DNA from: Pseudomonas lijiangensis
Lineage (GTDB): Bacteria > Pseudomonadota > Gammaproteobacteria > Pseudomonadales > Pseudomonadaceae
Length of the DNA stretch: 64,000 nucleotides
Reading direction: 5' to 3'
Assembly (NCBI RefSeq): GCF_018968705.1
Contig: NZ_CP076668.1
Location: forward strand, 4,351,001 to 4,415,000
Shown: positions 15,704-29,816 of the stretch, piece by piece
Layout: the number at the start of each line of letters is the position of its first letter
How positions within the stretch are numbered: the stretch's first letter is position 1
Notes under the pieces: model-generated
Seen by the model: the letters and a program-made list of their open reading frames with translations, nothing else
Database searches by the model: none
What the model was told of the DNA's origin: nothing
Position numbers and translations under genes: made by a program

Positions 15704-15720
15704 CTTAACTGATCAGCTCA
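15704..15720 (+). repeat. Recurrent short motif, copy C
   Basis: CTTAACTGATCAGCTCA matches the recurring motif over its first eleven bases and then diverges. It overlaps the stop codon of the minus-strand TPP enzyme gene. Confidence 0.45.
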
Positions 15721-17319
15721 CGGCACAAACGGCGGCGCCTCGTTGATTTCGATGATCAGCGGGCGGTCATTCGGGGCTTGGCGTAGCAGGGTTTTCAGGT
15801 GGGTATGGTCGCGGGCGCGTTCTGCGGCGCAGCCGAAACCTCGGGCCAGGGTGATGAAGTCCGGGGTGTAGATGTCCACGCCCAGCGGCGTGATGTCACG
15901 ACGTTCCATGTAGCGCTTGATCTCGCCATATCCCTGGTTGTTCCACAACAGCACGATGATCGCGATTCCCGCTTCCACGGCGCTGGCCAGTTCCGGCAGG
16001 GTGAACTGGATGCCGCCATCCCCCATCAAGCTGATGACCGTTCGTTCAGGCTCTGCCAGTTTTGCGCCCAGGGCAGCAGGCAGGCCGTAGCCCAGCGTGC
16101 CGTAGCCGGTGGACGCGTTGAACCAGCGGCGCGGGCTGTCCAGTTCGACCAGATGATTGCCGCTGTATACGGTCTGGGTCGAATCACCGACAAAACGCGC
16201 ATCGGGCAACACCTCCAGCACGCACTCGAACAGCCGCCGGTAATGCGCCCAGCCGCTGAAGTCTTCGCTCAATTGTTCGCGCACCGCTGCCGCCCGTTTT
16301 GCCCCAGGGCTGTCGGCGCTTGCCGCACGAACGGGCAACTCGGCCAACAAAGCGCGCATCGCCTGACGGGCATCGCTGAGGATGGCCAGGCTCGGCGCAT
16401 GGTTGCGGGTCAGTTGTTCGGCATCGATATCGATACGGATCAACTCGCCGCCCATCCGGAAATTACCATCGAACACCACGTCATAATCGGTTTCACCCAA
16501 TTCAGTGCCAATCGCCAATACCACATCAGCCTCCAGCGCCAGTTGCCGCACCGGCACCAGCGATTGGTTGCTGCCCAGCAATAACGGATGATCCCCCGGC
16601 AACAGGCCTTTGGCATTGATGGTCAGGGCCGTGGGCGCGTCGAGACGTGCAGCCAGCTCACGGGCCTCGTCCATGGCCGCGACGCAACCGCCGCCCAGCA
16701 GCAAGAGCGGGCGCTTGGCAGCGCGCAAGCGTTCTGCCGCTTGATGAATGGCCGCCAGATCCGGCGACGGTCGAGCGATGACCTGACGAGGCATCAGCGC
16801 CAGGTGGTCGGCAGACGCGGTGATGATATCCAGCGGCAACTCGATGTGTACCGGCCTCGGGCGCTGGCTGTCGAACACTGCAAAAGCACGGAGCAGCACC
16901 GCGGGCAGTTCATCAACGCTCATCAGTGTATGACTGAAAGCACTGACCCCGGCGACCATCGCACGCTGGTTCGGCAGTTCATGCAGATAACCGTTGCCCT
17001 GCCCCAGCCGCGCCCGCTCGTTGACACTGGAAATCACCAGCATCGGAATCGAGTCGGCGTAGGCCTGACCCATGGCGGTGAGTATATTGGTCATCCCTGG
17101 CCCGGTAATGATGAAACAGACACCCGGCTTGCCGCTGACCCGCGCATAGCCGTCCGCCATGAAACCCGCGCCCTGCTCATGACGCGGCGTGACATGGCGA
17201 ATGCCGCTGCCCGGCAGGCCGCGATACAGCTCGATGGTGTGTACGCCAGGAATGCCGAATACCGTATCGACACCCCAGGCCTGCAATTGCTTTACGAGGA
17301 ATTCGCCACAGGTACTCAT
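15718..17319 (-). CDS. Thiamine-diphosphate decarboxylase, AruI-like (2-ketoarginine decarboxylase candidate)
   Basis: TPP enzyme of the acetolactate-synthase fold, 533 residues. The catalytic Glu is in RHEQGAGFMADGYAR near 46-60 and the TPP/Mg motif is GDGGIQFTLPEL with NNQGYGEIK near 435-465. It groups with 5-guanidino-2-oxopentanoate decarboxylase rather than IlvB: there is no FAD-type regulatory partner, and it lies in an operon with guanidinobutyrase. P. aeruginosa also has such a gene near gbuA. Expected product is 4-guanidinobutyraldehyde. The ATG overlaps the transporter stop by four bases. No aldehyde dehydrogenase for the next step lies in the window. Confidence 0.8.
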   Translation of the reverse strand: MSTCGEFLVKQLQAWGVDTVFGIPGVHTIELYRGLPGSGIRHVTPRHEQGAGFMADGYARVSGKPGVCFIITGPGMTNILTAMGQAYADSIPMLVISSVNERARLGQGNGYLHELPNQRAMVAGVSAFSHTLMSVDELPAVLLRAFAVFDSQRPRPVHIELPLDIITASADHLALMPRQVIARPSPDLAAIHQAAERLRAAKRPLLLLGGGCVAAMDEARELAARLDAPTALTINAKGLLPGDHPLLLGSNQSLVPVRQLALEADVVLAIGTELGETDYDVVFDGNFRMGGELIRIDIDAEQLTRNHAPSLAILSDARQAMRALLAELPVRAASADSPGAKRAAAVREQLSEDFSGWAHYRRLFECVLEVLPDARFVGDSTQTVYSGNHLVELDSPRRWFNASTGYGTLGYGLPAALGAKLAEPERTVISLMGDGGIQFTLPELASAVEAGIAIIVLLWNNQGYGEIKRYMERRDITPLGVDIYTPDFITLARGFGCAAERARDHTHLKTLLRQAPNDRPLIIEINEAPPFVP

Positions 17320-18833
17320 GCAGTCACCTCCTGCTCCAGACCAATGAAGCGGCGTACACGCGGATCACCTTCACTGCGGATCGATGCAGGCGAAGCGTCG
17401 GTCACTACATGGCCGTTTTCCATGAATACGATACGGTCGGAAATCGACAGTGCAAAATCCATTTCATGGGTCACGATCAACATGGTCATGCCTTCCCCGG
17501 CCAGACCACGAATCACATTGAGCACCTCGCCCACCAGCTCCGGGTCCAACGCCGAAGTGGGTTCATCGAACAGCATGATGTCCGGCTCCATGGCCAGAGC
17601 ACGAGCAATCGCCACCCGTTGTTGCTGACCGCCGGACAACTGATGCGGGTACTTGTCGGCATGAGCCAGCAGTCCGACCCGATCCAGCAGCGCATGCCCC
17701 TTGCGACGCAACTCGGCGGAACCGGCCAGCCCGTGATAACGCGGCGCGAGGATGACGTTGTCGAGAATGGTGCGATGCGGGAACAGGTTGAAGTTCTGGA
17801 ACACCATGCCAATGCGCCGGATGCCCTGGCGGATGACCGGTGCATCGTCACGCTTGCCAGCCTTGATGAAGTCATTGCCGAACAGCACGATCTCGCCACG
17901 ATCAATGCTTTCCAGGCTGTTGATGGTGCGGATCAGCGACGTCTTGCCCGAGCCGGACGGGCCGATGATGGAAATCACCTCACCGGGTTTGACCGCAAGG
18001 TCGATGCCCTTGAGGACTTCGTGATTGCCATAGCGCTTATGGATGTCGCGCAACAACAAGGCATCGGGTTGTCCGGGCGCTGACTCGTTACGTTTCTTGC
18101 CGGCACTCGCCGGTTGGCGCAAGGCCTGAGCCTGGGTGTCATCGAGGGTCCGGGCGTTCTTGCGTGACAGGTCCAGATGACGCTCGGCCCACTGCAGCAG
18201 CCAGCCGAACAGCGTGACGATCAACACGTAATAAATGGCCACGGCTGCCAGGGTTTCCAGCACCAGGAAGTTCTGCGCATAGAGGCGCTGGCCGACCAGC
18301 AGCAACTCGCTCAGGGAAATCACCGACACCAGCGAAGTGAGCTTGACGATGGTCACGTATTCGTTGGTCAGCGTCGGCAAGGAAATACGAATGGCCTGGG
18401 GAATGATCACCAGCCGCTGCGCGCCAACCCCGCGAATGCCCAGCGCCTTGGCGGCTTCCCGCTGGCCCTTGAGCACCGACAGCAAGCCGCCGCGATGGAT
18501 CTCGGCCATATAGGCGGTTTCGGTCAGCACCAGGGCGATAAGCCCGGAATAGAACGGCTGCGACAGCACGCTGCCGGTCACGGGAAACAGTTGCGGCAGG
18601 TTGTAGACGAACACCAGCAGCACCAGTAACGGGATGCTGCGAAACAGCCAGATATACAGACTCGCCGGCATGCGCAACCAGGCATGAACGGACAGTTTGG
18701 CGCTGGCCAGCAGAAAGCCCAGCACCAGACCGATAAACCAGGACAGAGTGCTCAACTGAACCACGGTAAGGCAGGCTTTCCAGAAGGCGGAGACAGAAAA
18801 CAGCGAGAAGAAATAGGCCCAATCGAATGCCAT
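17316..18833 (-). CDS. Polar amino acid ABC transporter, permease-ATPase fusion
   Basis: One 505-residue chain joins a HisM-type permease (about 1-225, with the EAA-like loop EAAKALGIRGVGAQRLVIIPQ) to an ABC ATPase (about 262-500). Walker A is GPSGSGKT, the signature LSGGQQQR, Walker B IMLFDEP and the His loop VTHEMD. In most amino acid importers these are separate chains; as a homodimer this fusion would supply both permease and both ATPase parts. GAGG lies six bases before the ATG at 18833. Cargo is inferred to be arginine-like or another guanidino compound from its neighbours. Confidence 0.92.
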   Translation of the reverse strand: MAFDWAYFFSLFSVSAFWKACLTVVQLSTLSWFIGLVLGFLLASAKLSVHAWLRMPASLYIWLFRSIPLLVLLVFVYNLPQLFPVTGSVLSQPFYSGLIALVLTETAYMAEIHRGGLLSVLKGQREAAKALGIRGVGAQRLVIIPQAIRISLPTLTNEYVTIVKLTSLVSVISLSELLLVGQRLYAQNFLVLETLAAVAIYYVLIVTLFGWLLQWAERHLDLSRKNARTLDDTQAQALRQPASAGKKRNESAPGQPDALLLRDIHKRYGNHEVLKGIDLAVKPGEVISIIGPSGSGKTSLIRTINSLESIDRGEIVLFGNDFIKAGKRDDAPVIRQGIRRIGMVFQNFNLFPHRTILDNVILAPRYHGLAGSAELRRKGHALLDRVGLLAHADKYPHQLSGGQQQRVAIARALAMEPDIMLFDEPTSALDPELVGEVLNVIRGLAGEGMTMLIVTHEMDFALSISDRIVFMENGHVVTDASPASIRSEGDPRVRRFIGLEQEVTA

Positions 18834-18878
18834 GATGACCTCGGTGAATCAGGTGAATACAAAGACGCAGAACGGAAG

Positions 18879-18935
18879 TGGGAGGCAGCTTGCTGGCGAC
18901 TGCCACTGAAGTCGCCAGCAAGCTGCCTCCCACAG
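18879..18935. repeat. REPIN, family I, inside the operon
   Basis: A compact doublet (GGGAGGCAGCTTGCTGGCGA / TCGCCAGCAAGCTGCCTCCC) with a spacer of about 17 bases. It lies between the binding-protein gene and the permease-ATPase gene of the same operon. Confidence 0.9.
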
Positions 18936-18987
18936 GGCCAGTGAAGCCGACATATCGATGTCGTCTGGCCCGGTAGAAACAGGCGTG

Positions 18988-19785
18988 TTACGCCGGATCC
19001 AGGTTGTACTTCTTGAGCAACTGGGTGTACTCGTCGCTCTTCTTGTAGGTTTCAACCGCGCTGCGCATTTTTTCCAGCAGCTCGGTGTTGCCCTTCTTCA
19101 CGTAAACGCCCAGGGTCTGGGCATACAGCGACTTCTGCGAACTGATAACGATGCGGCCACGGGCCTTGTCGATGATCATCTGTGCGGCAGCGGAGATTTC
19201 CAGGTGGGCCTGGATATTGCCGGACATCAGCGCCTGGGACGCTTCAGCCGTGGTCGGGAATTCGCTGATCAGGATCTCGCCCTTGTTCTGCTTGGCGCAG
19301 TAATCGCTGGACACCGCCTTGAGCTGGTTGATCCAGTTGGTGCCCTGCTGCAGACCGACTTTCAGGCCGCACAAATCTTCAGGCTGCTGCGGTTTGGCGG
19401 TGCTGTCGCTGCGCACCATGATCGCTGCGCCCACCTGCGCGTAAGGAATGGCTTCCGCCTGTTTGGTGCGCTCCTCGGTGATGTACATGCCCGAAATGAT
19501 GGTGTCGAAGCGGTTGGCATTCAGGCCCAGAATCAGGTTCGGGAAGCGTGTGTCGACGAACTCGACCTTCAGGCCACCGATCTGCTTGGCCAGCGCGGCG
19601 GACACTTCGGGGTCGAAGCCCACAACCTTGTCGCCGTCATAGGACTCGAACGGCGGATAGGAGATTTCCATACCGACCTTGAGCGTGCCGGGCGTGGCAG
19701 TCGGTGCCGCCTGGGCGCTGCCCGCGAACAACAGAGACAGGCCGAGCACAGAAGTGGCAAGACGCGAAAGCGTGGAGTTTTGCAT
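18988..19785 (-). CDS. Periplasmic amino acid-binding protein
   Basis: Solute-binding protein of the polar amino acid family (SBP_bac_3), 265 residues. A signal peptide ends at SAQA-AP near residue 24. The mature domain has GMEISYPPFE, GFDPEVSAALAKQIG and the FDTIISGMYITEERTKQ segment that contacts ligands in this family. ATG at 19785 is preferred over 19794, which would touch its own GGA. The protein should deliver cargo to the downstream fused transporter. Confidence 0.92.
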   Translation of the reverse strand: MQNSTLSRLATSVLGLSLLFAGSAQAAPTATPGTLKVGMEISYPPFESYDGDKVVGFDPEVSAALAKQIGGLKVEFVDTRFPNLILGLNANRFDTIISGMYITEERTKQAEAIPYAQVGAAIMVRSDSTAKPQQPEDLCGLKVGLQQGTNWINQLKAVSSDYCAKQNKGEILISEFPTTAEASQALMSGNIQAHLEISAAAQMIIDKARGRIVISSQKSLYAQTLGVYVKKGNTELLEKMRSAVETYKKSDEYTQLLKKYNLDPA

Positions 19786-19817
19786 AGTCGTCATTCCAGG
19801 TTGAGGGAAAAGGCAGA

Positions 19818-20855
19818 TCACAAAGTCACGCTCTGGTTTTTCAGGTGCCCGAAGCTTGAAGGCTTTCTGGCGCGTTCCGGCAAGGCAATCTGCCCACTGG
19901 CCACGCGCTGGCGAAGGTATTGATACGTCTGCAAGGCCTGGGCCCACATGTGCTCACCAATGGCGATGGGCTCATAACTCTGTTCAGCAGCCGCGAACTG
20001 CGGTAACGGTTTGATAAGGGTGTGGTAGTCGCAGGCATAGAACAGCGGGAACGAATAGCGCTCCTGCCTGACCTTGCGCACTCGATGGGCCGTGGCGACA
20101 AAAGCACCGGCGGTCATCACTTCCAGCATGTCGCCGATGTTCACCACAAAGGCATCGCCCAACGGTGGTGCGTCGATCCACTCGCCCTGCTCGTTCATCA
20201 CCTCCAGGCCCGGCTGATCAGCCTTGAGAATGGTGAAGCACTCGTAATCGGTGTGAGCGCCAATGCCCGGAGCATCCTGCGCTTCGCCGTCGTAGGGGTA
20301 ATGGATCAGGCGCAGCTTCGAGGGCGGGAAACAGGCCATGTCATCAAAGGCATGCTCATCCAGCCCGAGGGCCAGGGCAAAGCCGCGAAACAACTGATGC
20401 CCCAACGCGAACACGGCCTTGTAATACGCCTGCACCGACGCCTGAAAACCCGGCAGGCTCGGCCAGTCATTGGGCCCCAGCAGCGGCGTACCGGCGAGCA
20501 CCAGCGGGTTGTCGGCGGGGACTTCAAAACCGATATCGAAGGCTTCCTTGTGATCCGGCTTGCCGGTGCCATACACCTCTTCGCCTTCAGGCACGAAACC
20601 CTTGTGGCTCTGGGACGTACCGATGTAATGACGCATCTTGGCGTCCAGCGGCTGGGCGAAATACTGCTCGGCGGCGCGGTGCAGGTTGTCGACCAACTCG
20701 GGGGCGATGCCATGGCCGGTGATGTAGAGAAACCCCACATGCCGGGCCGCTTCGCCAAGGGCCTGAGCCACGGCCTGGCGGTCCTCCAGGCGCTCGCTGA
20801 ACAGGCCGTGAATATCGACCACGGGAATCCGGGTGAAAGCTGAACGTTCACTCAT
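19818..20855 (-). CDS. Fe(II)/2-oxoglutarate oxygenase, IPNS-like; possible guanidino-substrate hydroxylase
   Basis: Non-heme iron oxygenase of 345 residues with the DIOX_N fold, then the 2OG-Fe(II) jelly roll. The iron triad is His201, Asp203 and His257, and the 2-oxoglutarate anchor RxS is at 266-268. It belongs with isopenicillin-N-synthase-like proteins such as P. aeruginosa PA4191 and plant 2-ODD-C23 enzymes, some of which hydroxylate homoarginine and release guanidine. The ATG at 20855 overlaps the isomerase stop by four bases. With gbuA and a ketoarginine-decarboxylase-like gene in the same operon, an arginine-like substrate is likely but unproven. It is not the classic ethylene-forming enzyme by sequence. 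Confidence 0.85.
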
Positions 20856-21712
20856 GGCTGCTGGTTCTCTGGACGGTTGGAAAAGGCATTGAAATGGTCG
20901 CGCTCGGTGCGGCCCATCCAGGCATTGAGGCCCCACAGATCGGCCACCGGCACATCGGTGAAAGGCAGATGATGCAGATAACCATCGGGACCGAACTCGG
21001 GCGTCAGGGTGGTCCCGGTAAAACCGCGGGCCTGCTGCGAACGCCAGATCGCTTCCCAATGCTGCTGATGAAACGCCAGCGCCGCAGCGTATTCCGGTGC
21101 CGCCGGGTGCGGCACCTGCGGGCCCTGGTCGTAACCCACCCGTGCCTGAATGTGATGCACGCGCTCGACAAAGGCACTCAAATCATCGGCCGGGTCGTTC
21201 AGCAGCCGCTCGCAGGTCACCACCCAATGGCTGATATCGCTGGTGAAACGCAGGTCCGGCACTTGCTCGATCAGTTGCAGGGTCAGCCACGGATTGAACA
21301 GCGAACGCGCCCGATGCGTCTCGAAACTGCACATCAAACCGCTGCGCGCCCCAATCTCCAGCGCCTCGCCAAAAAAGTCCACCTGCTGCGCCAGCGGCCA
21401 GCGGTCGTTACCGGCCAGCACGTTGACAAAGCGCGGCTCCAGCTCGGCGGCCAGCTGCAACTTGTGCCTGAAATCCGCCAGATGCTCAGCCGGGGTAGCC
21501 GACTGCAAAGGCAGCACCGGCGTGGAGGTGAACAGAATCGCGATATAGGGCACCCGGTTGTCACGCAAGAACGCCGCAAACGCCGCCCGCTCGGCAGGCT
21601 GCTCGGGGATACGCGCCTCGAAGCCATCGAAACCGGCGACATGCGCCTCATCCAGCGCCTGCTGCCAGGTGCCGCGATAGCCCCACAAGGTACGAAAGAT
21701 TTCCAGCTTCAT
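20852..21712 (-). CDS. Sugar phosphate isomerase/epimerase-like TIM barrel
   Basis: Xylose-isomerase-like TIM barrel of 286 residues (AP endonuclease family 2). Conserved barrel strands include [10 protein letters not shown] near 27, NVLAGNDRW near 97, [10 protein letters not shown] near 126, [10 protein letters not shown] near 156, HHIQARVG near 186 and TPEFGPDGY near 237, giving the Glu/Asp/His metal set. It is translationally coupled to the oxygenase. No sugar pathway gene is nearby, so it may act on a hydroxylated product of the oxygenase; this is inference. ATG 21712. Confidence 0.82.
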
Positions 21713-21749
21713 GGGCTGCTCCAGCGCCTGTCACGGTTGGTCAGTAGAG

Positions 21750-21763
21750 TTAATGCCGATCAG
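21750..21763 (-). repeat. Recurrent short motif, copy E
   Basis: TTAATGCCGATCAG is the reverse complement of the motif core CTGATCGGCATTAA. It lies between gbuA and the isomerase gene without a REP next to it. Confidence 0.5.
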
Positions 21764-21797
21764 CTGAGGCCCACAAAGTCATTCATGACCCTCGGCG

Positions 21798-22757
21798 TTA
21801 CCGACGCACCACACCCGGCAACACACACAGCATTTCGTACAACAGATTGGCCCCCAGCAACGAGGTATTGCCGGTGGTGTCATAAGGCGGCGACACCTCC
21901 ACCAGATCGCAGCCAATCAGATCCAGCCCCTGGCACCCGCGAATGATCTCCAGCGCCTGAATCGTGGTCAGTCCGCCGACTTCCGGCGTGCCGGTGCCCG
22001 GCGCCCAGGCCGGATCGATGCCGTCGATATCGAACGACAGGTACACCGGCCCGCCGCCCACCTTCTCGCGCACTTCGGCCATCAGCGGCGTCAGCGACTG
22101 GTGCCAGCACTCCTCGGCCTGCACCACACGAAAACCCTGCTTGCGACTCCAGTTGAAATCCTCGGCGGTATAACCCTGCGCACGCAGGCCGATCTGCACC
22201 ACGCGGTCACTGTCCAGCAGGCCCTCTTCCTGAGCGCGGCGGAACGTGGTGCCGTGGGCGATCTTCTCGCCGAACATGTGATCGTTGACGTCGGCATGGG
22301 CATCGATATGCACCAGCCCGACCTTGCCGTGCTTCTTGTGAATGGCGCGCAAAATCGGCAGCGTCAGGGTGTGGTCGCCGCCTAGGGTCAGCGGGACGAT
22401 GCCGTGCCCGAGAATCCGGTCGTAGGCCTCTTCGATGATCCGCACCGCATCGAGCAGGTTGAAGGTATTGATTGCCACATCGCCAATGTCTGCCACGTTC
22501 AACGAATCGAACGGCGCTGCGCCCGTGGCCATGTTGTAAGGACGGATCATCACCGACTCGGCCCGAATCTCCCGCGGCCCGAAACGGGTACCGGAACGCA
22601 GCGACGTCCCGATATCCAGCGGAATACCCACAAACGCGGCATCCAGACGCTCAAGCTCTTCAGGGGCCTGCACATGAGGCAAGCGCAGCATCGTGGCGAT
22701 ACCACCGAAACGGGGCATCTCATTGCCGCCCAGGGGCTGGTGGAAAGTCTTGTCCAC
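21798..22757 (-). CDS. gbuA: Guanidinobutyrase
   Basis: Ureohydrolase that splits 4-guanidinobutyrate into 4-aminobutyrate and urea, the last step of the arginine transaminase/decarboxylase routes. The 319-residue protein is very close to P. aeruginosa GbuA (HQPLGGNEMPRFGGIATM, SGTRFGPREIRAES, GYTAEDFNWSRKQGF). Mn ligands are His129 (GGDHT), Asp152, His154, Asp156 (DAHAD) and Asp243/Asp245 (DIDGIDP). GTG at 22757 has GAGG six bases upstream; the in-frame start at 22835 would add an unconserved tail. Probably the first gene of the operon and regulated by the divergent LysR protein. Confidence 0.95.
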   Translation of the reverse strand: MDKTFHQPLGGNEMPRFGGIATMLRLPHVQAPEELERLDAAFVGIPLDIGTSLRSGTRFGPREIRAESVMIRPYNMATGAAPFDSLNVADIGDVAINTFNLLDAVRIIEEAYDRILGHGIVPLTLGGDHTLTLPILRAIHKKHGKVGLVHIDAHADVNDHMFGEKIAHGTTFRRAQEEGLLDSDRVVQIGLRAQGYTAEDFNWSRKQGFRVVQAEECWHQSLTPLMAEVREKVGGGPVYLSFDIDGIDPAWAPGTGTPEVGGLTTIQALEIIRGCQGLDLIGCDLVEVSPPYDTTGNTSLLGANLLYEMLCVLPGVVRR

Positions 22758-22903
22758 GGGAGGCCTCACCTTGTTCACATTGAAAGTGGGGCCATTCTGG
22801 AGAGCCGCGCCAACCGGACAAATCGCTGCCAGCAAATAATTACTTCAGAGATTTCTAAACTATCGCCAGATACATACACTGGCACACCAGCACGACTCAC
22901 CCC

Positions 22904-22927
22904 TGTGGGAGGCAGCTTGCTGGCGAC
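22904..22927. repeat. Single REP arm, family I
   Basis: TGTGGGAGGCAGCTTGCTGG and three more bases, without a partner arm. It lies in the gbuA-gbuR promoter gap, 21 bases before gbuR. Confidence 0.85.
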
Positions 22928-22947
22928 AGCCATCCACAGGAGCCCCC

Positions 22948-23838
22948 ATGTCCTCAGCCCTGCCCGACCTGAAACTGCTGCGCATCTTCGCCAGCGTGGT
23001 ACGCCATCAGGGCTTTGCTGCCGCCCAACAGGAACTCAACCTCTCCACCTCCGCCATCAGCACTTACATGAGCCAGCTCGAAACCCAGCTCGGCCTGATC
23101 CTGTGCCACCGAGGCCGCGGCGGCTTCAGCCTCACCAGCAAAGGCGACCTCTTCCACCAGGAAACCTTGCGCCTGCTGGCCGAACTCGAAGGCTTCGAGC
23201 GCTACAGTGCCGCCCTCAAAGGCGAACTGCGCGGCACCCTCAACCTCGGCGTGCTCGACACCACCGTCAGCGACCCGGCCCTGCCCCTGGCCGACGTCAT
23301 CGGCGCCTACAGCAAAGAACACCCCGCCGTACACCTGCACCTCTCGGTACTCAGCCCCGCGCAACTGCAACTGGGCCTACAGGAAAACCGCATCGACCTC
23401 GCCATCGGCGCCTTCTCCATCCGCATGAACGGCCTCATGTACCAAGGCCTGTACCGCGAACAACACTGGCTCTACTGCAGCGACCGCCACGAACTCTTCG
23501 ACCAGCGCCGCATCCCCGCCGAAGTCATCACCCGCCAGCGCATGGTCGGCCGCGGCTACTGGAGCCAGGCCGAACTCGCCCGCCACGGCTTCAAACACAG
23601 TGCAGCGACAGTCGAGTCGATGGAGGCGCAGTTGATACTCGTGCTGTCCGGCGCATACATCGGCTACTTGCCGGAGCACTACGCGCAATTCTGGGTGGAT
23701 CAGAAACGCCTCAAAGTGTTGCTGCCAACGACCTTCGGCTATCAGGCCCCGTTTTCGTTGGCGTTGAGACGCGGGAGATCGAAGGAGCCGCTGATAAAGA
23801 GCTTTCGGGATCGGTTGAAGGGGTGTTTTGAGGAATAA
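22948..23838 (+). CDS. gbuR: LysR-family regulator of the guanidinobutyrase operon
   Basis: Regulator of 296 residues with the N-terminal helix-turn-helix (FASVVRHQGFAAAQ, then LSTSAISTYMSQLETQLG) and a LysR ligand domain. It is divergent from gbuA, as GbuR (PA1422) is from gbuA (PA1421) in P. aeruginosa. ATG at 22948 has AGGAG seven bases upstream. The expected inducer is 4-guanidinobutyrate. The coding sequence is followed at once by a REP and then the AT-rich island. Confidence 0.87.
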   Translation: MSSALPDLKLLRIFASVVRHQGFAAAQQELNLSTSAISTYMSQLETQLGLILCHRGRGGFSLTSKGDLFHQETLRLLAELEGFERYSAALKGELRGTLNLGVLDTTVSDPALPLADVIGAYSKEHPAVHLHLSVLSPAQLQLGLQENRIDLAIGAFSIRMNGLMYQGLYREQHWLYCSDRHELFDQRRIPAEVITRQRMVGRGYWSQAELARHGFKHSAATVESMEAQLILVLSGAYIGYLPEHYAQFWVDQKRLKVLLPTTFGYQAPFSLALRRGRSKEPLIKSFRDRLKGCFEE

Positions 23839-24376: not shown

Positions 24377-25330
24377 TTGGATTCGATCGAAATTTGCGCC
24401 GGTGCAGGTGGTCAAGCTTTAGGCCTTGAACAAGCGGGCTTTGACCATCTCAATTTGGTGGAAATAGAACCGTCGGCATGCGCAACCCTCCAGTTAAATC
24501 GCCCTAACTGGGTTGTTAAAGAATGTGATGTTAGGGAATACAGTGCTATTGCTTTTCATGGTATCGATTTGCTAGCAGGCGGAGTGCCATGTCCTCCATT
24601 TTCCAAGGCAGGAAAGCAGCTAGGGGATGCAGATGAGCGTGATTTGTTTCCAGATGCCTTGCGACTTGTTGACGAGTGTCGGCCAAGAGCCGTAATGCTG
24701 GAAAATGTCAAAGGATTACTGGATCCAAAATTTGCAGAGTATCGTCAAAAAATCGTTGAAGAGCTTAAAAAGCACGGCTACTTTGCTGAGTGGAAGTTGT
24801 TAAACGCTAAAGATTATGGTGTTCCACAACTTCGTCCAAGGGCTATTTTGATAGCACTTCAACCAGACTTAATAGATTTTTTTGAATGGCCAACACCACA
24901 TCCAGAAGCAGCACCGACAGTAGGAGAGGCACTCTATGATCTTATGGCTCTACATGGATGGAAAGATGTAGACCATTGGAAAGAGCTAGCTTGTCAAATT
25001 GCGCCAACTCTGGTGGGAGGAAGCAAAAAGCACGGTGGTCCAGATCTGGGACCAACAAGAGCTAAAAAAGCATGGGCGACTCTTGGCGTTAATGGTATGG
25101 GAATTGCCAACTCTGAGCCCGAAATGGATTTCGTAGGCTTTCCAAAACTCACCGTCAGAATGGCGGCACGAATTCAAGGCTTTCCAGATAGTTGGCAATT
25201 CAGCGGAAAAAAAACCGCTTCATATAGGCAAGTTGGAAACGCATTCCCACCACCAGTTGCTCGTGCTATAGGAGAGCAAATAAATCTTGCACTTACAGCA
25301 TCAGCAAAATCAAAACTCAAACGAGCTTAA
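24377..25330 (+). CDS. C5-cytosine DNA methyltransferase, NaeI-type
   Basis: Protective methyltransferase of a type II restriction system, 317 residues. Conserved motifs are in order: I (AGAGGQALGLEQAGF near 8-22), IV with catalytic Cys72 (GGVPCPPFS), VI (ENVKG at 109-113), VIII (QLRPRAI) and IX-X (IQGFPDSW, QVGNAFPPPVARAIG). The variable region between VIII and IX that reads DNA is short. The start is TTG with AGAGG just upstream; its weak codon may limit expression. Low GC compared with flanks indicates transfer. With the NaeI-like nuclease behind it, the target is probably GCCGGC. Confidence 0.93.
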   Translation: MDSIEICAGAGGQALGLEQAGFDHLNLVEIEPSACATLQLNRPNWVVKECDVREYSAIAFHGIDLLAGGVPCPPFSKAGKQLGDADERDLFPDALRLVDECRPRAVMLENVKGLLDPKFAEYRQKIVEELKKHGYFAEWKLLNAKDYGVPQLRPRAILIALQPDLIDFFEWPTPHPEAAPTVGEALYDLMALHGWKDVDHWKELACQIAPTLVGGSKKHGGPDLGPTRAKKAWATLGVNGMGIANSEPEMDFVGFPKLTVRMAARIQGFPDSWQFSGKKTASYRQVGNAFPPPVARAIGEQINLALTASAKSKLKRA

Positions 25331-25567
25331 TAAAATATTCACTATAACAAGTATAAATTTTAAATATTCTACGCCCTAATATAGCCCTCATAAAGAATCA
25401 CAGGGGGCTTTACATAAAAGATACTCCTTCCTGTTACGAACAGCCAAGATCACCAAACCAAAAGTCTACCTCATTAGGCTGCTAATATCCTTTAACAGCC
25501 AACCAGCAAATCTTGCATTCCTCCTAGCATGGCCTCATGATATCAAAAAAATCATGAGGGCAGTACC

Positions 25568-26374
25568 TTGACAGAACAGACTTTTTTTGAGCCTGATGTT
25601 GCACTTGAATCCGTTGCTGACTTTCTCATAAAGAAAAAGGATCTACACAAGGTTATCTCGCAAGGGCTTCGTCAATCTTTTGACGAAGTAATAGATGGAG
25701 CACGCACCGGTAGATACAGCATCGCACAACTAGAAAAAACAGAAAAAACTTATATAGGAACAAAAGTAGAAATAATTATAAGAGACAAACTATCGCTTGA
25801 ACGAGGCCGTATTCTAGATAATCTAATATGTAACTATGAAGTTGACACAAAATTCTCACTAACCGGCAACTGGATGATTCCAAGAGAAGCGATAGGTCAT
25901 CTATGCATTCTTGTAAGTGGCAGTGATGATAGTGAGAAATTTAGCATGGGGTTACTAAGAATGACTCCAGAAAACCTCACAGCTGGCTCAAATCAAGACG
26001 GGAAAAAAAGTGTTTCATCGGCTGGGAAAAACAGAATCTTTTGGTTAATCAATAATGCACCAATGATTCCAAACTTTCTAATGAAACTCCCTCCAGAAAT
26101 ACGCCAATCAATCATGTCCAAAGAAAGTGGCGTACAAAGAATAAGGGCGTTATTTACCAACGTAACAAGCCAAATAATTCCTCGAACAGCCATAGAGCAA
26201 GTCGCACAACAAAAAGATCCTCTTAAACGAGCAAGAGAGGCAAAGGATATTCTTGCACCAGAAGGATATAAAGTACTGTGTGCAACTTACGATGTAGATC
26301 GGCAACACTTTATCAACAATGGGTTCACAAACTTTAAGGAAGGTGATTGGCTTTCACTAAAGACTCAACATTAA
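25568..26374 (+). CDS. NaeI-family type II restriction endonuclease
   Basis: Restriction enzyme of 268 residues. The N-terminal half resembles R.NaeI (DGARTGRYS, LEKTEKTYIGTKVEI, WMIPREAIGHLC). All four NaeI catalytic residues are present at identical spacing: Glu68, Asp84, Asp93 and Lys95, equal to Glu70, Asp86, Asp95 and Lys97. NaeI is a type IIE enzyme that needs a second site bound by a C-terminal Topo domain; this protein is about 50 residues shorter than NaeI at the C terminus. The start is TTG with GAGGG upstream. Predicted to cut GCCGGC; the 237-base gap after the methyltransferase holds no controller gene. Confidence 0.88.
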   Translation: MTEQTFFEPDVALESVADFLIKKKDLHKVISQGLRQSFDEVIDGARTGRYSIAQLEKTEKTYIGTKVEIIIRDKLSLERGRILDNLICNYEVDTKFSLTGNWMIPREAIGHLCILVSGSDDSEKFSMGLLRMTPENLTAGSNQDGKKSVSSAGKNRIFWLINNAPMIPNFLMKLPPEIRQSIMSKESGVQRIRALFTNVTSQIIPRTAIEQVAQQKDPLKRAREAKDILAPEGYKVLCATYDVDRQHFINNGFTNFKEGDWLSLKTQH

Positions 26375-26622
26375 AGCCGACAACCAAAACACTGCACTTA
26401 CTGCGCCCGAACATGTTACCAGAGCATGGCAAGAAGCTAGCCGCAGCCCACTCTTGAGAAAATAAGCCAACACAACCGCAGCAATACATCAGATAGAAAT
26501 CTGGTGTATTGCACCCTGGCCCTAACAAACAAAATAAACACCAACTACCACCACCAAACAACCAAAATACTGGCCAACTTTTCAAACATAGAATATTAAA
26601 AGGAAATATTAATAATTAAAAA
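26375..26622. other. Non-coding gap between restriction gene and mcrC
   Basis: AT-rich, no gene seen. It separates the plus-strand nuclease from the convergent mcrC gene. Confidence 0.5.
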
Positions 26623-26657
26623 CTTAAAACTTAAAACTTAAAACTTAAAACTTAAAA
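26623..26657 (+). repeat. Perfect heptamer array (CTTAAAA)x5
   Basis: Five exact CTTAAAA units. The TAA stop codon of minus-strand mcrC lies within the last unit (26652-26654), so unit gain or loss could alter the end of the gene by a few residues. Confidence 0.9.
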
Positions 26658-27914
26658 ACTCAGCCTGAGAAAGCCACATAACACCCCCGCATTCAAATCA
26701 AAAGGTACAACATATAATTTCATTCCTGCCGAATACTCAAATTTTGCCAACTCCTCCTGAAACCCTTCCCGCTTCGGATAAATCAACACCAAATCCCCCT
26801 GCCCACCAAGATATTTATGGCCATACGCAAAAAGCTGATAAAAATCCTCCTGGCTCAGCCCATAATTTTTAACTCCAGGTCCAGTATCCAAACACTTCCA
26901 TTTAGTATCCAAAACCCAGCGTTTATCCCCTTGAGTGATCATCAGGTCAGGCCGGAGCTGAAAGACTTTCCTACCTTTATGCTCGCAGAGGTATTCGTTT
27001 TTGACCTCAATATCCAAGGTTGCGTCCGATGGCAGAGAATCCCGCAAGCATGCTGCGACGTAACGCTCGAATAGCTTTTCCATTGGGAACAGCAAGCTCA
27101 TGCCTTTCCATTCACCCAAAATCGCCAAAGGTGTCTGTTGCTGAATGATCAGCTCGCACCAAGGTTTGACCGGTTGGTAATGGGCCATAAGCCGGTCGTT
27201 TCGCCATTGTTTGAAGTCGGCAATGGTGTCGCGGCTAGGTGAGACTTCCAGCAGCATTGATCGCAATTCATGGGATAAGCGCCAATTGCTAGGGTCTTGA
27301 GTGGTTTTGCAGACGATATCCAATGCCGTTTTGAGAAGACGATTCTCAGGGCGATCAGGGAGGAAGATATCGTGACGAATCTGGAAGTGGTGTTGTCGCC
27401 CAGGCGGCTGGCGCATTTGTCGTGCAGTGTTGAGTTGGCCGCGTAGATAGCGTTGTTCTTCTTCAACCCGTTGGTAGTCGAAACGCAGGCCACGCTTGAT
27501 CAAATGGTCGAGCGTTTCGAGAAAGCTACCCATCACCCATTCAGTCAGTGGTGCATCAAAACGTTGCAGTGCGGTGACGCCAACCTCACGGGTGGGAAGA
27601 TTCAATGACTTTTGAATCATGCGTCGGAGCAATGCACGGCTCTGCTGAATGCAGTCACCTTTATCAAAATGCTTAGGAAGAATTTCGATGCGAGTGCCAC
27701 AAGGGGTTTCCAAAACGCCCACATAGTTATCGAGCTTGAGCCAACGACGATCCTCGATCTGGACCAGTGCTGCGCCGACTTTGCTGAACTTTGAGCTCTG
27801 CTCGCATAACCAATCGAAAGCCGAAGCTGAAACTTGCGCCCTATCAAGGCTTGGGTTCAGGACATGACTCGTTGTGAGTCGGGCATACTCACGAACTGTA
27901 AGGGTGGTTTTCAC
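26652..27914 (-). CDS. mcrC: McrC nuclease subunit of McrBC
   Basis: Nuclease subunit of the type IV system that cuts modified DNA, 420 residues. The N-terminal part carries the McrC adaptor fold; the C-terminal PD-(D/E)xK core is visible as LRPDLMI followed by WVLDTKWK. It needs the McrB motor for activity. GTG start at 27914 overlaps the mcrB stop by four bases. Lower GC than the core genome. The substrate (5mC, 5hmC or N4mC) is not readable from sequence. Confidence 0.9.
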   Translation of the reverse strand: MKTTLTVREYARLTTSHVLNPSLDRAQVSASAFDWLCEQSSKFSKVGAALVQIEDRRWLKLDNYVGVLETPCGTRIEILPKHFDKGDCIQQSRALLRRMIQKSLNLPTREVGVTALQRFDAPLTEWVMGSFLETLDHLIKRGLRFDYQRVEEEQRYLRGQLNTARQMRQPPGRQHHFQIRHDIFLPDRPENRLLKTALDIVCKTTQDPSNWRLSHELRSMLLEVSPSRDTIADFKQWRNDRLMAHYQPVKPWCELIIQQQTPLAILGEWKGMSLLFPMEKLFERYVAACLRDSLPSDATLDIEVKNEYLCEHKGRKVFQLRPDLMITQGDKRWVLDTKWKCLDTGPGVKNYGLSQEDFYQLFAYGHKYLGGQGDLVLIYPKREGFQEELAKFEYSAGMKLYVVPFDLNAGVLCGFLRLSF

Positions 27915-29464
27915 CTTTTTCTCTCATCGAGAGCTTTGATGACTCTTCTGCCCAGATGACGCGTATTGAGTTTTGAGCCAGAACCGAACTCAACAGAAAT
28001 ATTGTATTTTTCTGCGAATTCCCGCAGCACTGGCAAAACTGGACTAACACGAACACCTTCACGAAGAACCACGATCGAACCACTGGCTAAAAGCTGCACG
28101 GTGACCCCATCTTCACTGGCTTCCTTTACCACCAGCGGCTGCGATATTTGAGAGGTATGGTCGATAATTCCAAGATAAGCCTCAACCAGCCCAAATGCCT
28201 CAACGTTCAGCTCCCAACCCTCGTTACTCTGGTTGATCGCAACCGAATCTCCAAATAAAGCACTAAGGTCTTGATTAGGCTGAAGGAGAAAACGATTTTC
28301 GACGGCCTTACGTTGGTCATTCAAAACCCATTGAATTCTCTGCCAATCCTCAAAGAAGTACTCTTGAAGCAGCGGGAGAATTTGCTGCCGGAATATATCC
28401 TCCAAGCGCTCCAACGTGGGTTCAGATTTGAGGGGCATGAAGTATGCGTGACCGAGGCAATGGTCCCGATCAAGCAATACTGCGATTCGCTGGTTCATAA
28501 CGTCTAGGAGTCTGTCGATAGCGATGCCTTCAACCATGACGTTATGAAGTAATTCAGGATTCGGCGGGACTTCGGTGAAGGTGAAGCGTCGACGAAGAGC
28601 GATGTCCAAAGCAGCCAGCGAACGGTCAGCGGTGTTCATGGTGCCAATCAGATAGACGTTATCAGGAACACTGAAACGCTTTTTCGAGTAGGGCAAGGTG
28701 ACCTCTAGCGCTTCAGACGCACCAGCACGCTTAGATGGCTCGATAAGCGTAATCAGTTCGCCAAAGATGCGAGAGATATTGCCGCGATTGATCTCGTCAA
28801 TGATGAGGACTTTAGCGCTGTTGCTTGAGGTAGAACCCGGTTCAAAAGAAAGCTGGTCAGCGTCGTGACCTGCAGCGTCCACAATATGAGCAACCAAAGA
28901 GGGAATCAGGTTTTTATAACCATTGACTAAGAAAGGTTCGAGTGTCGAACCAACTGCTTTCTTGTCCCATTCGCCATTTCGAAGATCATCCACCGTAAAC
29001 GTGCCCGCTTTGACGTGGTCAGCAAGGTCGTTAAGCAGGCTCATGCCAATCGGCAGGTACTTACCCTGAGGCTTTTCAAGCTCAACAACATCCACTGTCG
29101 AACGAAGGACTTTGTAGCCCGTGCCGTACTTATCCCCGATCTTGAAAGGTCCAGGAGCATCCAACTGCTGTGAACACAGTCTCTTGAAAATACCCGGCAC
29201 TACCGCATAGCGCAGTTGACCATAATCATCACTTTCAGCTCGCAAACCTTCCACAAAGTCTTCGTAGCTGAAGCTTTGGTGAAACGTCACAAAATGAACG
29301 TCCCCTGACTCAGCGAGCTCATCAAATCGTTTTTTCAACGCACTGCGCTGGCCTTGATGAGCAGCCAAGTAAGCAGGATCAAGAATCTCCAACGTCGCCT
29401 CAATGGTCGCGTAGGTTTTCCCCGTTCCGGGTGGGCCGAAGAAAATCTGGTTGAGCGAAGGCAT
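27911..29464 (-). CDS. mcrB: McrB-type AAA+ GTPase
   Basis: Motor subunit of a McrBC system, about 517 residues from the ATG at 29464; in-frame starts up to 29692 add unconserved residues. Walker A (GPPGTGKT) begins at residue 10, so the usual N-terminal modified-DNA reader is absent. The core has FHQSFSYEDFVEG, IIDEINRGN (Walker B), GTMNTADRSLAALD (GTPase signature) and RRRF. An insert of about 100 residues lies between FHQSFSYEDF and Walker B, and about 90 extra residues at the C terminus (VQLLASGSIVVL, DUF4357-like) may read DNA. The missing N-terminal reader makes the target unclear. Confidence 0.88.
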   Translation of the reverse strand: MPSLNQIFFGPPGTGKTYATIEATLEILDPAYLAAHQGQRSALKKRFDELAESGDVHFVTFHQSFSYEDFVEGLRAESDDYGQLRYAVVPGIFKRLCSQQLDAPGPFKIGDKYGTGYKVLRSTVDVVELEKPQGKYLPIGMSLLNDLADHVKAGTFTVDDLRNGEWDKKAVGSTLEPFLVNGYKNLIPSLVAHIVDAAGHDADQLSFEPGSTSSNSAKVLIIDEINRGNISRIFGELITLIEPSKRAGASEALEVTLPYSKKRFSVPDNVYLIGTMNTADRSLAALDIALRRRFTFTEVPPNPELLHNVMVEGIAIDRLLDVMNQRIAVLLDRDHCLGHAYFMPLKSEPTLERLEDIFRQQILPLLQEYFFEDWQRIQWVLNDQRKAVENRFLLQPNQDLSALFGDSVAINQSNEGWELNVEAFGLVEAYLGIIDHTSQISQPLVVKEASEDGVTVQLLASGSIVVLREGVRVSPVLPVLREFAEKYNISVEFGSGSKLNTRHLGRRVIKALDERKR

Positions 29465-29816
29465 TGCTGAACATCCATGTAGGAAAATTCCCTCAACAGT
29501 ATCTAGATTGCCAGCATGGGTAAAGTCGGGCTTGTGTTGCTGATGACAGAGGTGCTGCTCTTCTGACGAATACGCCATCGAAACGTCTGACAAAAACGCT
29601 AGCCCTCCTCTGATATCGGCAGCACAGCAATGCCCGTATCGTTCACGCCGGTGCCTAAGAAACACCCAACGTAAAGTCGTCACCCCAAGCAAAAGCTGAG
29701 TTTCATGCTGCTCGAAGGAGCAGGTGATTCTCTAGCTATCGGGTTGGCTAGTTGGGGTTTCTTGCCCCACCTCTACGTTGGTCCGAAACATTTCAGCTAA
29801 CCGGTAGAGGCCAATA
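29465..29816. other. Divergent gap between mcrB and the Bro-N gene
   Basis: No gene is supported. It probably holds the promoters for mcrB and the antirepressor-like gene, but no clear boxes were seen. Confidence 0.4.

Follow-up and report, generated by a model that had tools for sequence, protein, structure and literature searches.

A guanidinobutyrase-linked operon of Pseudomonas lijiangensis that pairs an MgdH-clade oxygenase with a TIM-barrel protein

The window considered here, a stretch of 64,000 nucleotides from the plant-associated bacterium Pseudomonas lijiangensis (contig NZ_CP076668.1, positions 4,351,001 to 4,415,000), carries six codirectional genes and one divergent regulator gene, in which the guanidinobutyrase gene gbuA is joined by genes for a triose-phosphate isomerase (TIM) barrel protein (iso), an Fe(II)/2-oxoglutarate (2OG) oxygenase (oxy), an ATP-binding cassette (ABC) importer and an AruI-like decarboxylase. 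The oxygenase falls in the clade of MgdH. In Vreelandella boliviensis MgdH hydroxylates methylguanidine and MgdL splits the hemiaminal, D49 and R51 being essential in MgdL (PMC12508155). Our preferred reading, offered tentatively and as somewhat short of probable, is that the operon, under LysR regulation, serves to break down an N-substituted guanidino carboxylic acid that would be imported and oxidatively dealkylated, with Iso replacing MgdL. That the MgdH-clade oxygenase is directed at a guanidino compound we hold more firmly than the exact substrate. The genes are as follows.

21798..22754, minus strand: gbuA, predicted guanidinobutyrase (arginase family) with a GTG start; PF00491, match to 3nio
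20852..21712, minus strand: iso, PF01261 TIM-barrel protein, partner of the oxygenase
19818..20855, minus strand: oxy, Fe(II)/2OG oxygenase of the MgdH clade; PF14226 and PF03171
18988..19794, minus strand: substrate-binding protein (SBP), a periplasmic binding protein of family 3; PF00497
17316..18833, minus strand: fused ABC permease/ATPase of the polar amino-acid importer type; PF00528 and PF00005 in one protein
15718..17319, minus strand: AruI-like 5-guanidino-2-oxopentanoate decarboxylase, thiamine pyrophosphate-dependent; NF005712
22948..23838, plus strand: divergent LysR-type regulator gene, by family match

The seven genes, their order and strands, the divergent LysR gene and the two 4-base overlaps (ATGA, at the iso/oxy and ABC/decarboxylase junctions) all stand as an earlier note on this DNA had described them. 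By its sequence the oxygenase is a member of the MgdH clade with intact iron and 2OG sites; the HxD...H triad and RxS motif seen earlier (H201, D203, H257, R266 and S268) prove invariant in 11 aligned rows. The L132 enzyme served as a stand-in for MgdH, chosen by gene order and by the MgdL residues D49 and R51; its locus holds gca, the oxygenase and a 225-residue protein with D49 and R51, arranged much as in Vreelandella. With the L132 enzyme the window oxygenase shares 57% identity, and with the 15 MgdH-like enzymes 49-61%; as the L132 enzyme is itself 49-60% identical to the other 14, the window enzyme lies within the same range as the MgdH-like group. It is nearer to these than to the homoarginine and ethylene-forming oxygenases, and the homoarginine-type kinship that had been suggested gives way accordingly. 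Among solved structures it comes closest to 9ovh, an ancestral reconstruction, and 6jyv, which we take to be PA4191, a protein whose function PMC12329707 gives as unknown. Ethylene-forming enzyme and plant homoarginine-6-hydroxylases, which free guanidine from arginine or homoarginine (PMC12329707 and PMC11018352), belong to the same 2OG oxygenase superfamily and are more distant from oxy than is MgdH; the arginine-binding pocket of the PK2 ethylene-forming enzyme includes Arg316.

Which partner accompanies such an oxygenase? Among 113 fetched oxygenase loci, which are not independent since 80 come from one similarity scan, 96 have iso, 17 have an MgdL-like gene, and none has both or neither. 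Wherever iso and oxy occur together (96 of 96 loci), iso lies directly upstream on the same strand, within 150 bp, and a search of these 96 loci at E 1e-15 found no MgdL-like match. Nor does the 64-kb window contain a homologue of MgdL, guanidine carboxylase or carboxyguanidine deiminase at E 1e-5. The MgdL-like partners, for their part, have an aligned D-x-R in 16 of 16 proteins. On a midpoint-rooted oxygenase tree of 46 rows chosen from 115, one change of partner suffices, and the enzyme of Paraburkholderia sprentiae (L142) is the deepest branch among the iso rows. Judged by the oxygenase, both from 98% identity and from a separate tree, the host genome stands next to P. capsici and P. cichorii.

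The window shares with MgdH/MgdL (PMC12508155) the oxygenase clade, a single dedicated partner gene beside the oxygenase, and a guanidino gene neighbourhood. It differs in that its partner is a PF01261 TIM barrel whereas MgdL is a beta-barrel, in its linkage to GbuA and LysR rather than to guanidine carboxylase and guanidine riboswitches, in an importer with a family 3 SBP where MgdH-like loci have the NMT1 type, and in the residues Lys85 and Lys180 of the oxygenase. Both lysines are present in 96 of 96 oxygenases of the iso-oxy-SBP-ABC cassette, whereas the 15 MgdH-like enzymes have serine (14) or arginine (1) at position 85 and glutamine (15 of 15) at position 180; L130 (two rows), L131 and L142 stand outside both groups. 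The lysines hint at an anionic tail on the substrate, unlike methylguanidine. Locus L130 (G180:C9) has two tandem oxygenases of the clade, an MgdL-like match and two NMT1-like SBP-cluster genes, with no riboswitch at the gathering score.

Iso is predicted to have a TIM-barrel fold with conserved metal-site residues. All 14 rows compared share E131, H133, R134, D159, H162, H187 and E239; of these, E131, D159, H187 and E239 make up what we take to be the metal-site pattern of the PF01261 fold. The predicted structure (predicted local distance difference test score, pLDDT, 88.6) has as its nearest folds UlaE, the dehydratase AsbF, psicose epimerases and a C-glucosyl deglycosidase, with 10-17% identity in the listed rows, so that isomerase and lyase chemistry both occur in the fold. 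No NCBIfam model matched Iso, a single-sequence search of the PDB returned no relatives, and a profile search gave a weak match to Art22 (E 8e-5). Creatininase-family genes (PF02633) lie near iso in genomes of two different families (L144:4120-4902 and L149:9766-10536).

Relatives of Iso, 42-59% identical to the window protein, also stand beside a fatty-acid-desaturase-type protein at five loci (L145:7100-9956, L146:2989-11566, L148:2710-7669, L149:4876-10536 and L166:5884-8866), some of which have genes for metallo-beta-lactamase-fold, EamA and NMT1-type binding proteins as well. A guanidine-II riboswitch occurs in L146 and also, where the desaturase gene starts, in L145 and L148. The L146 desaturase-type protein matches the guanitoxin arginine hydroxylase model weakly (27.7 bits, cut-off 380). 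Possibly these loci constitute another guanidino hydroxylase system. Because relatives of Iso adjoin this other type of protein, in three of five loci together with a guanidine-II riboswitch, Iso plausibly acts on an oxygenase product.

How far does the arrangement extend? A scan with one genome per species gave 234 relatives of oxy, and among the best 80, which were retained, the order and strand of the cassette are kept in 80 of 80 loci. Neighbours were sought in flanks of up to 10 kb (L107 being a contig of only 6.5 kb), and gbuA was found in 30 of the 80, the AruI-like gene in 30, and both in 29. The conservation of gene order raised in the earlier note holds for the four cassette genes; gbuA was not found within these flanks in the remaining 50. 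A LysR homologue accompanies 29 of the 30 cassettes linked to gbuA and none of the 50 others. The order is gbuA-[NCS1 transporter]-iso-oxy-SBP-ABC-decarboxylase in the P. syringae group, LysR/iso-oxy-SBP-ABC-aldolase-gbuA-...-decarboxylase in a group that we take to be P. mendocina-like, and gbuA-iso-oxy-SBP-ABC-aldolase-decarboxylase in Stutzerimonas nosocomialis, the aldolase being so labelled by a 75% match to the L141 aldolase. In 13 of the 14 loci of greatest similarity (L032-L045) a gene for an NCS1-type transporter separates gbuA from iso; the window and P. capsici (L032) lack it. One cassette locus, L085, has a guanidine-carboxylase match. Across 149 genomes of the genus, iso is present in 34 (E 1e-60) and gbuA in 133 (E 1e-150), so that gbuA is near-core and the cassette optional. 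Of the 34 genomes with iso, 33 have gbuA, at most about 4.5 kb from iso in 6; in the single genome without it (G026), iso adjoins a desaturase-type gene and nothing matched the oxygenase. A single origin of the gbuA linkage was rejected by the approximately unbiased (AU) test (p 0.003), two gains being indistinguishable from loss.

Beyond Pseudomonadaceae the analysis covered five iso-oxy loci (L123, L140, L141, L142 and L144), the count leaving aside the unassigned Gammaproteobacteria L053, L058 and L085; of 8 plasmid-collection records with the oxygenase, 4 were opened. In three of the five gbuA heads the operon. L141, a Klebsiella pneumoniae record filed as a plasmid and 5.4 Mb long, L123, from another family within the window's order, and L144, from another order, have in common the arrangement LysR / gbuA-iso-oxy-SBP-ABC-class II aldolase-GhrA-like dehydrogenase, so that the shared operon order spans at least two families. 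L123 and L144 have frames of full length. The GhrA-like proteins score 216 (L141) and 194 (L123) bits, below the curated GhrA cut-off of 403. The other two loci carry different guanidino genes: in Kozakia (L140) iso-oxy and an importer occur with an ADI/DDAH-family enzyme, and in L142 iso-oxy lies among genes for carboxyguanidine deiminase, guanidine carboxylase (annotated as urea carboxylase) and allophanate hydrolase. The recurrence of one operon order beyond Pseudomonadaceae makes the gbuA link look functional, and for the same reason we do not accept the gbuA-less loci as a refutation of the guanidino link. The earlier note would have given up its view if homologues of the oxygenase and isomerase were consistently found away from gbuA and other guanidino genes; within the fetched flanks this is so of gbuA for the 50 similar loci above, and it is not so outside Pseudomonadaceae, where each of the five has one or the other. 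A megablast search of E. coli with the Klebsiella operon gave matches in 16 of 5,426 genomes, none over 80% of the query, and the five rows displayed are pieces of the ABC gene no longer than 84 bases.

The importer looks dedicated. Positions in its SBP are named after the lysine-arginine-ornithine binding protein, from which the ligand roles of the Arg77-, Asp161- and acid-11-type positions are also taken. The Arg77-type (carboxylate-type) arginine is kept in 85 of 85 cassette SBPs, as is the acid at position 11 (the side-chain site), one row being gapped. The Asp161-type position is isoleucine in 86 of 86, as against aspartate or asparagine in 9 of 9 paralogues of the host genome (23 were listed and 12 fetched; L159, the operon's own SBP, and L154 and L157, with unreliable frames, were dropped). 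Together with the two oxygenase lysines, this pattern suggests that the ligand combines a cationic end with a carboxylate, the alpha-amino site being altered. Of the earlier view, the tie of the oxygenase to guanidino metabolism and the dedicated look of the importer are borne out.

The gbuA product is predicted to be a guanidinobutyrase by its arginase fold and its full-length match to characterised GbuA: against 3nio, a solved guanidinobutyrase, E is 8e-206 over residues 1-318, and the second-best match, the guanidinopropionase 3nip, is at E 3e-94. The protein also exceeds the cut-off of the broader NCBIfam agmatinase model TIGR01230 (209 versus 174.3), and is the sole PF00491 match in the host genome. 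The decarboxylase scores 864.7 bits against NF005712, "5-guanidino-2-oxopentanoate decarboxylase" (cut-off 500). GbuA, a divergent LysR regulator and an AruI-like decarboxylase are shared with the Pseudomonas gbuA-gbuR guanidinobutyrate locus, as arranged in P. aeruginosa, to which the window adds the oxygenase, the TIM barrel and the family 3 ABC importer.

Riboswitch scans at Rfam gathering scores found no guanidine riboswitch or other riboswitch in the window. A guanidine riboswitch is present in 11 of 17 MgdL-partnered loci, in 3 of 6 iso loci lacking an MgdH-clade oxygenase (the three desaturase-type loci named above), and in a single one, L142, of the 10 iso-oxy loci scanned, among which the window is counted. 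L142 has two guanidine-I riboswitches and one guanidine-II riboswitch. From this distribution the gbuA-type operons are probably under LysR control rather than controlled by free guanidine. The host does have a guanidine-I riboswitch operon, about 0.2 Mb from the window operon (G000:C1:4593179-4602962, also L167:5180-14963), in which the riboswitch precedes genes for an ABC importer, cgdB/cgdA-like genes, and genes resembling those of guanidine carboxylase and allophanate hydrolase.

What would the operon do? The compound taken up by the ABC importer would bear a carboxylate and, at a cationic end, a guanidino group, and would probably lack an ordinary alpha-amino group. The oxygenase would hydroxylate the carbon bonded to a guanidino nitrogen, giving a hemiaminal, and Iso, in MgdL's place, might cleave that hemiaminal or process the carbonyl fragment. 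The leftover guanidino acid could then enter the metabolism of 2-ketoarginine and 4-guanidinobutyrate, where the AruI-like enzyme would decarboxylate the 2-oxo acid and GbuA would convert 4-guanidinobutyrate to gamma-aminobutyric acid (GABA) and urea. In other bacteria the class II aldolase and the GhrA-like hydroxyacid dehydrogenase may finish the released carbon fragment. The genes present, the clade of the oxygenase, the exclusivity of partners in the fetched loci and the operon order outside Pseudomonadaceae are computed; the substrate, the N-dealkylation step here, the lyase role of Iso and the order of steps we infer. A serial pathway fits the observation that the iso-oxy pair is fixed and its guanidino-handling neighbour varies (GbuA, a guanidine carboxylase operon or an ADI/DDAH-family enzyme).

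A number of points weigh against this dealkylation reading. No natural N-substituted guanidino acid has been identified, and as the fold of Iso matches mostly epimerases and isomerases, a hemiaminal lyase would be new. The window has no class II aldolase beside its operon, the one homologue in the genome being 48% identical and unlinked, and no GhrA-like gene is linked to its cassette. As for the tie to gbuA, the gene was not found in the fetched flanks of the 50 loci (L107 among them), it is not clearly enriched in iso-bearing genomes (33 of 34 versus 100 of 115), and the gbuA-linked rows are not one clade by the AU test already given. The Klebsiella copy may not be intact, as its gbuA, iso and ABC frames look shortened at one end and are missing from an incomplete gene table. 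A guanidine riboswitch was found in none of the nine cassette-type loci scanned (the window included, L142 apart). A glutamate just before the lost SBP aspartate, in 86 of 86 proteins, might substitute as a shifted acid, and the deep pair of L142 has Arg85 and Gln180 in place of both lysines. Lastly, the oxygenase tree is long-branched, its iso-partner split having support of 89/77 and no star, and the midpoint root leaves the direction of partner change unfixed, so that iso following MgdL is our inference.

One might think instead, as the earlier note did, of two branches from one substrate. An imported 4-guanidinobutyrate or arginine-like compound would be taken by GbuA to GABA and urea, and, through hydroxylation by the oxygenase adjacent to the guanidino nitrogen, to free guanidine and a semialdehyde, with Iso speeding the breakdown of the hemiaminal. 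Membership in the MgdH clade suits this scheme, as do the guanidine-I riboswitch and guanidine carboxylase operon of the host, which could use the guanidine, and the placement of iso-oxy inside a guanidine carboxylase operon in L142. However, two enzymes of one operon would then compete for one substrate, the nine cassette-type loci scanned are without guanidine riboswitches, L142 apart, and the aldolase and GhrA-like genes of the fuller operons are left unexplained. The comparative data favour a fixed iso-oxy pair with a varying guanidino-handling neighbour, and we consider the two-branch scheme unlikely. Doubtful to a similar and if anything slightly greater degree is the proposal that iso-oxy-SBP-ABC is a self-contained module with a substrate unrelated to guanidinobutyrate, next to gbuA through shared regulation or chance. 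It would account for the 50 of 80 loci in which the four genes are invariant without gbuA, and most genomes of the genus have gbuA in any case (133 of 149); but three loci outside Pseudomonadaceae repeat the gbuA link in one order and with a LysR gene, the gbuA-less loci there have other guanidino genes (ADI/DDAH family in L140, guanidine carboxylase in L142), and the oxygenase clade is that of MgdH.

It is also conceivable, though very improbable, that the oxygenase uses 2-ketoarginine as its oxo-acid substrate, yielding 4-guanidinobutyrate and bypassing decarboxylase and aldehyde dehydrogenase. Substrate and product would suit the adjacent AruI-like enzyme and GbuA. Yet the decarboxylase gene is kept nearby in 29 of 30 gbuA-linked loci, the RxS site for 2OG is intact, and iso, the aldolase and the GhrA-like genes would be without a task.

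The operon is likely read as one transcript, and no more than likely because a REP-like inverted repeat sits in the SBP-ABC gap (18834-18987). We presume from its appearance that this repeat is a Pseudomonas REP element; a related stretch lies in the gbuA-LysR gap (22755-22947). The start given for the SBP is our choice, the methionine preceding a signal-peptide-like stretch. Beside the LysR gene, positions 24377-29692 hold two adjacent restriction systems: first genes for a NaeI-type restriction endonuclease (PF09126) and a C-5 cytosine DNA methylase (PF00145), further on those for a McrBC component (PF10117) and an AAA ATPase.

The literature, searched by titles and abstract openings and with subscription papers mostly outside its reach, yielded no description of the cassette or of a TIM barrel replacing MgdL, in keeping with the earlier remark that the oxygenase and isomerase have no assigned role in arginine catabolism. 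Much is still to be learned about where guanidino compounds come from in bacteria and how they are used, and few enzymes are known that free guanidine or guanidino acids from larger compounds. The strict exclusivity of MgdL and the TIM barrel makes enzyme function directly testable with two purified proteins. A broader proposal, which we regard as possible and as less secure than the operon reading itself, is that there is a second, independent kind of guanidino-hemiaminal lyase: a PF01261 family that replaced MgdL once and, with an MgdH-clade or a membrane desaturase-type oxygenase, would strip substituents from guanidino nitrogens, the gbuA-linked operons giving Pseudomonas, Klebsiella and other bacteria access to an undescribed nutrient, an N-substituted guanidino acid. 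If common bacteria of plants and animals do share a conserved pathway with its own importer, this would imply a natural guanidino nutrient that has not yet been recognised.

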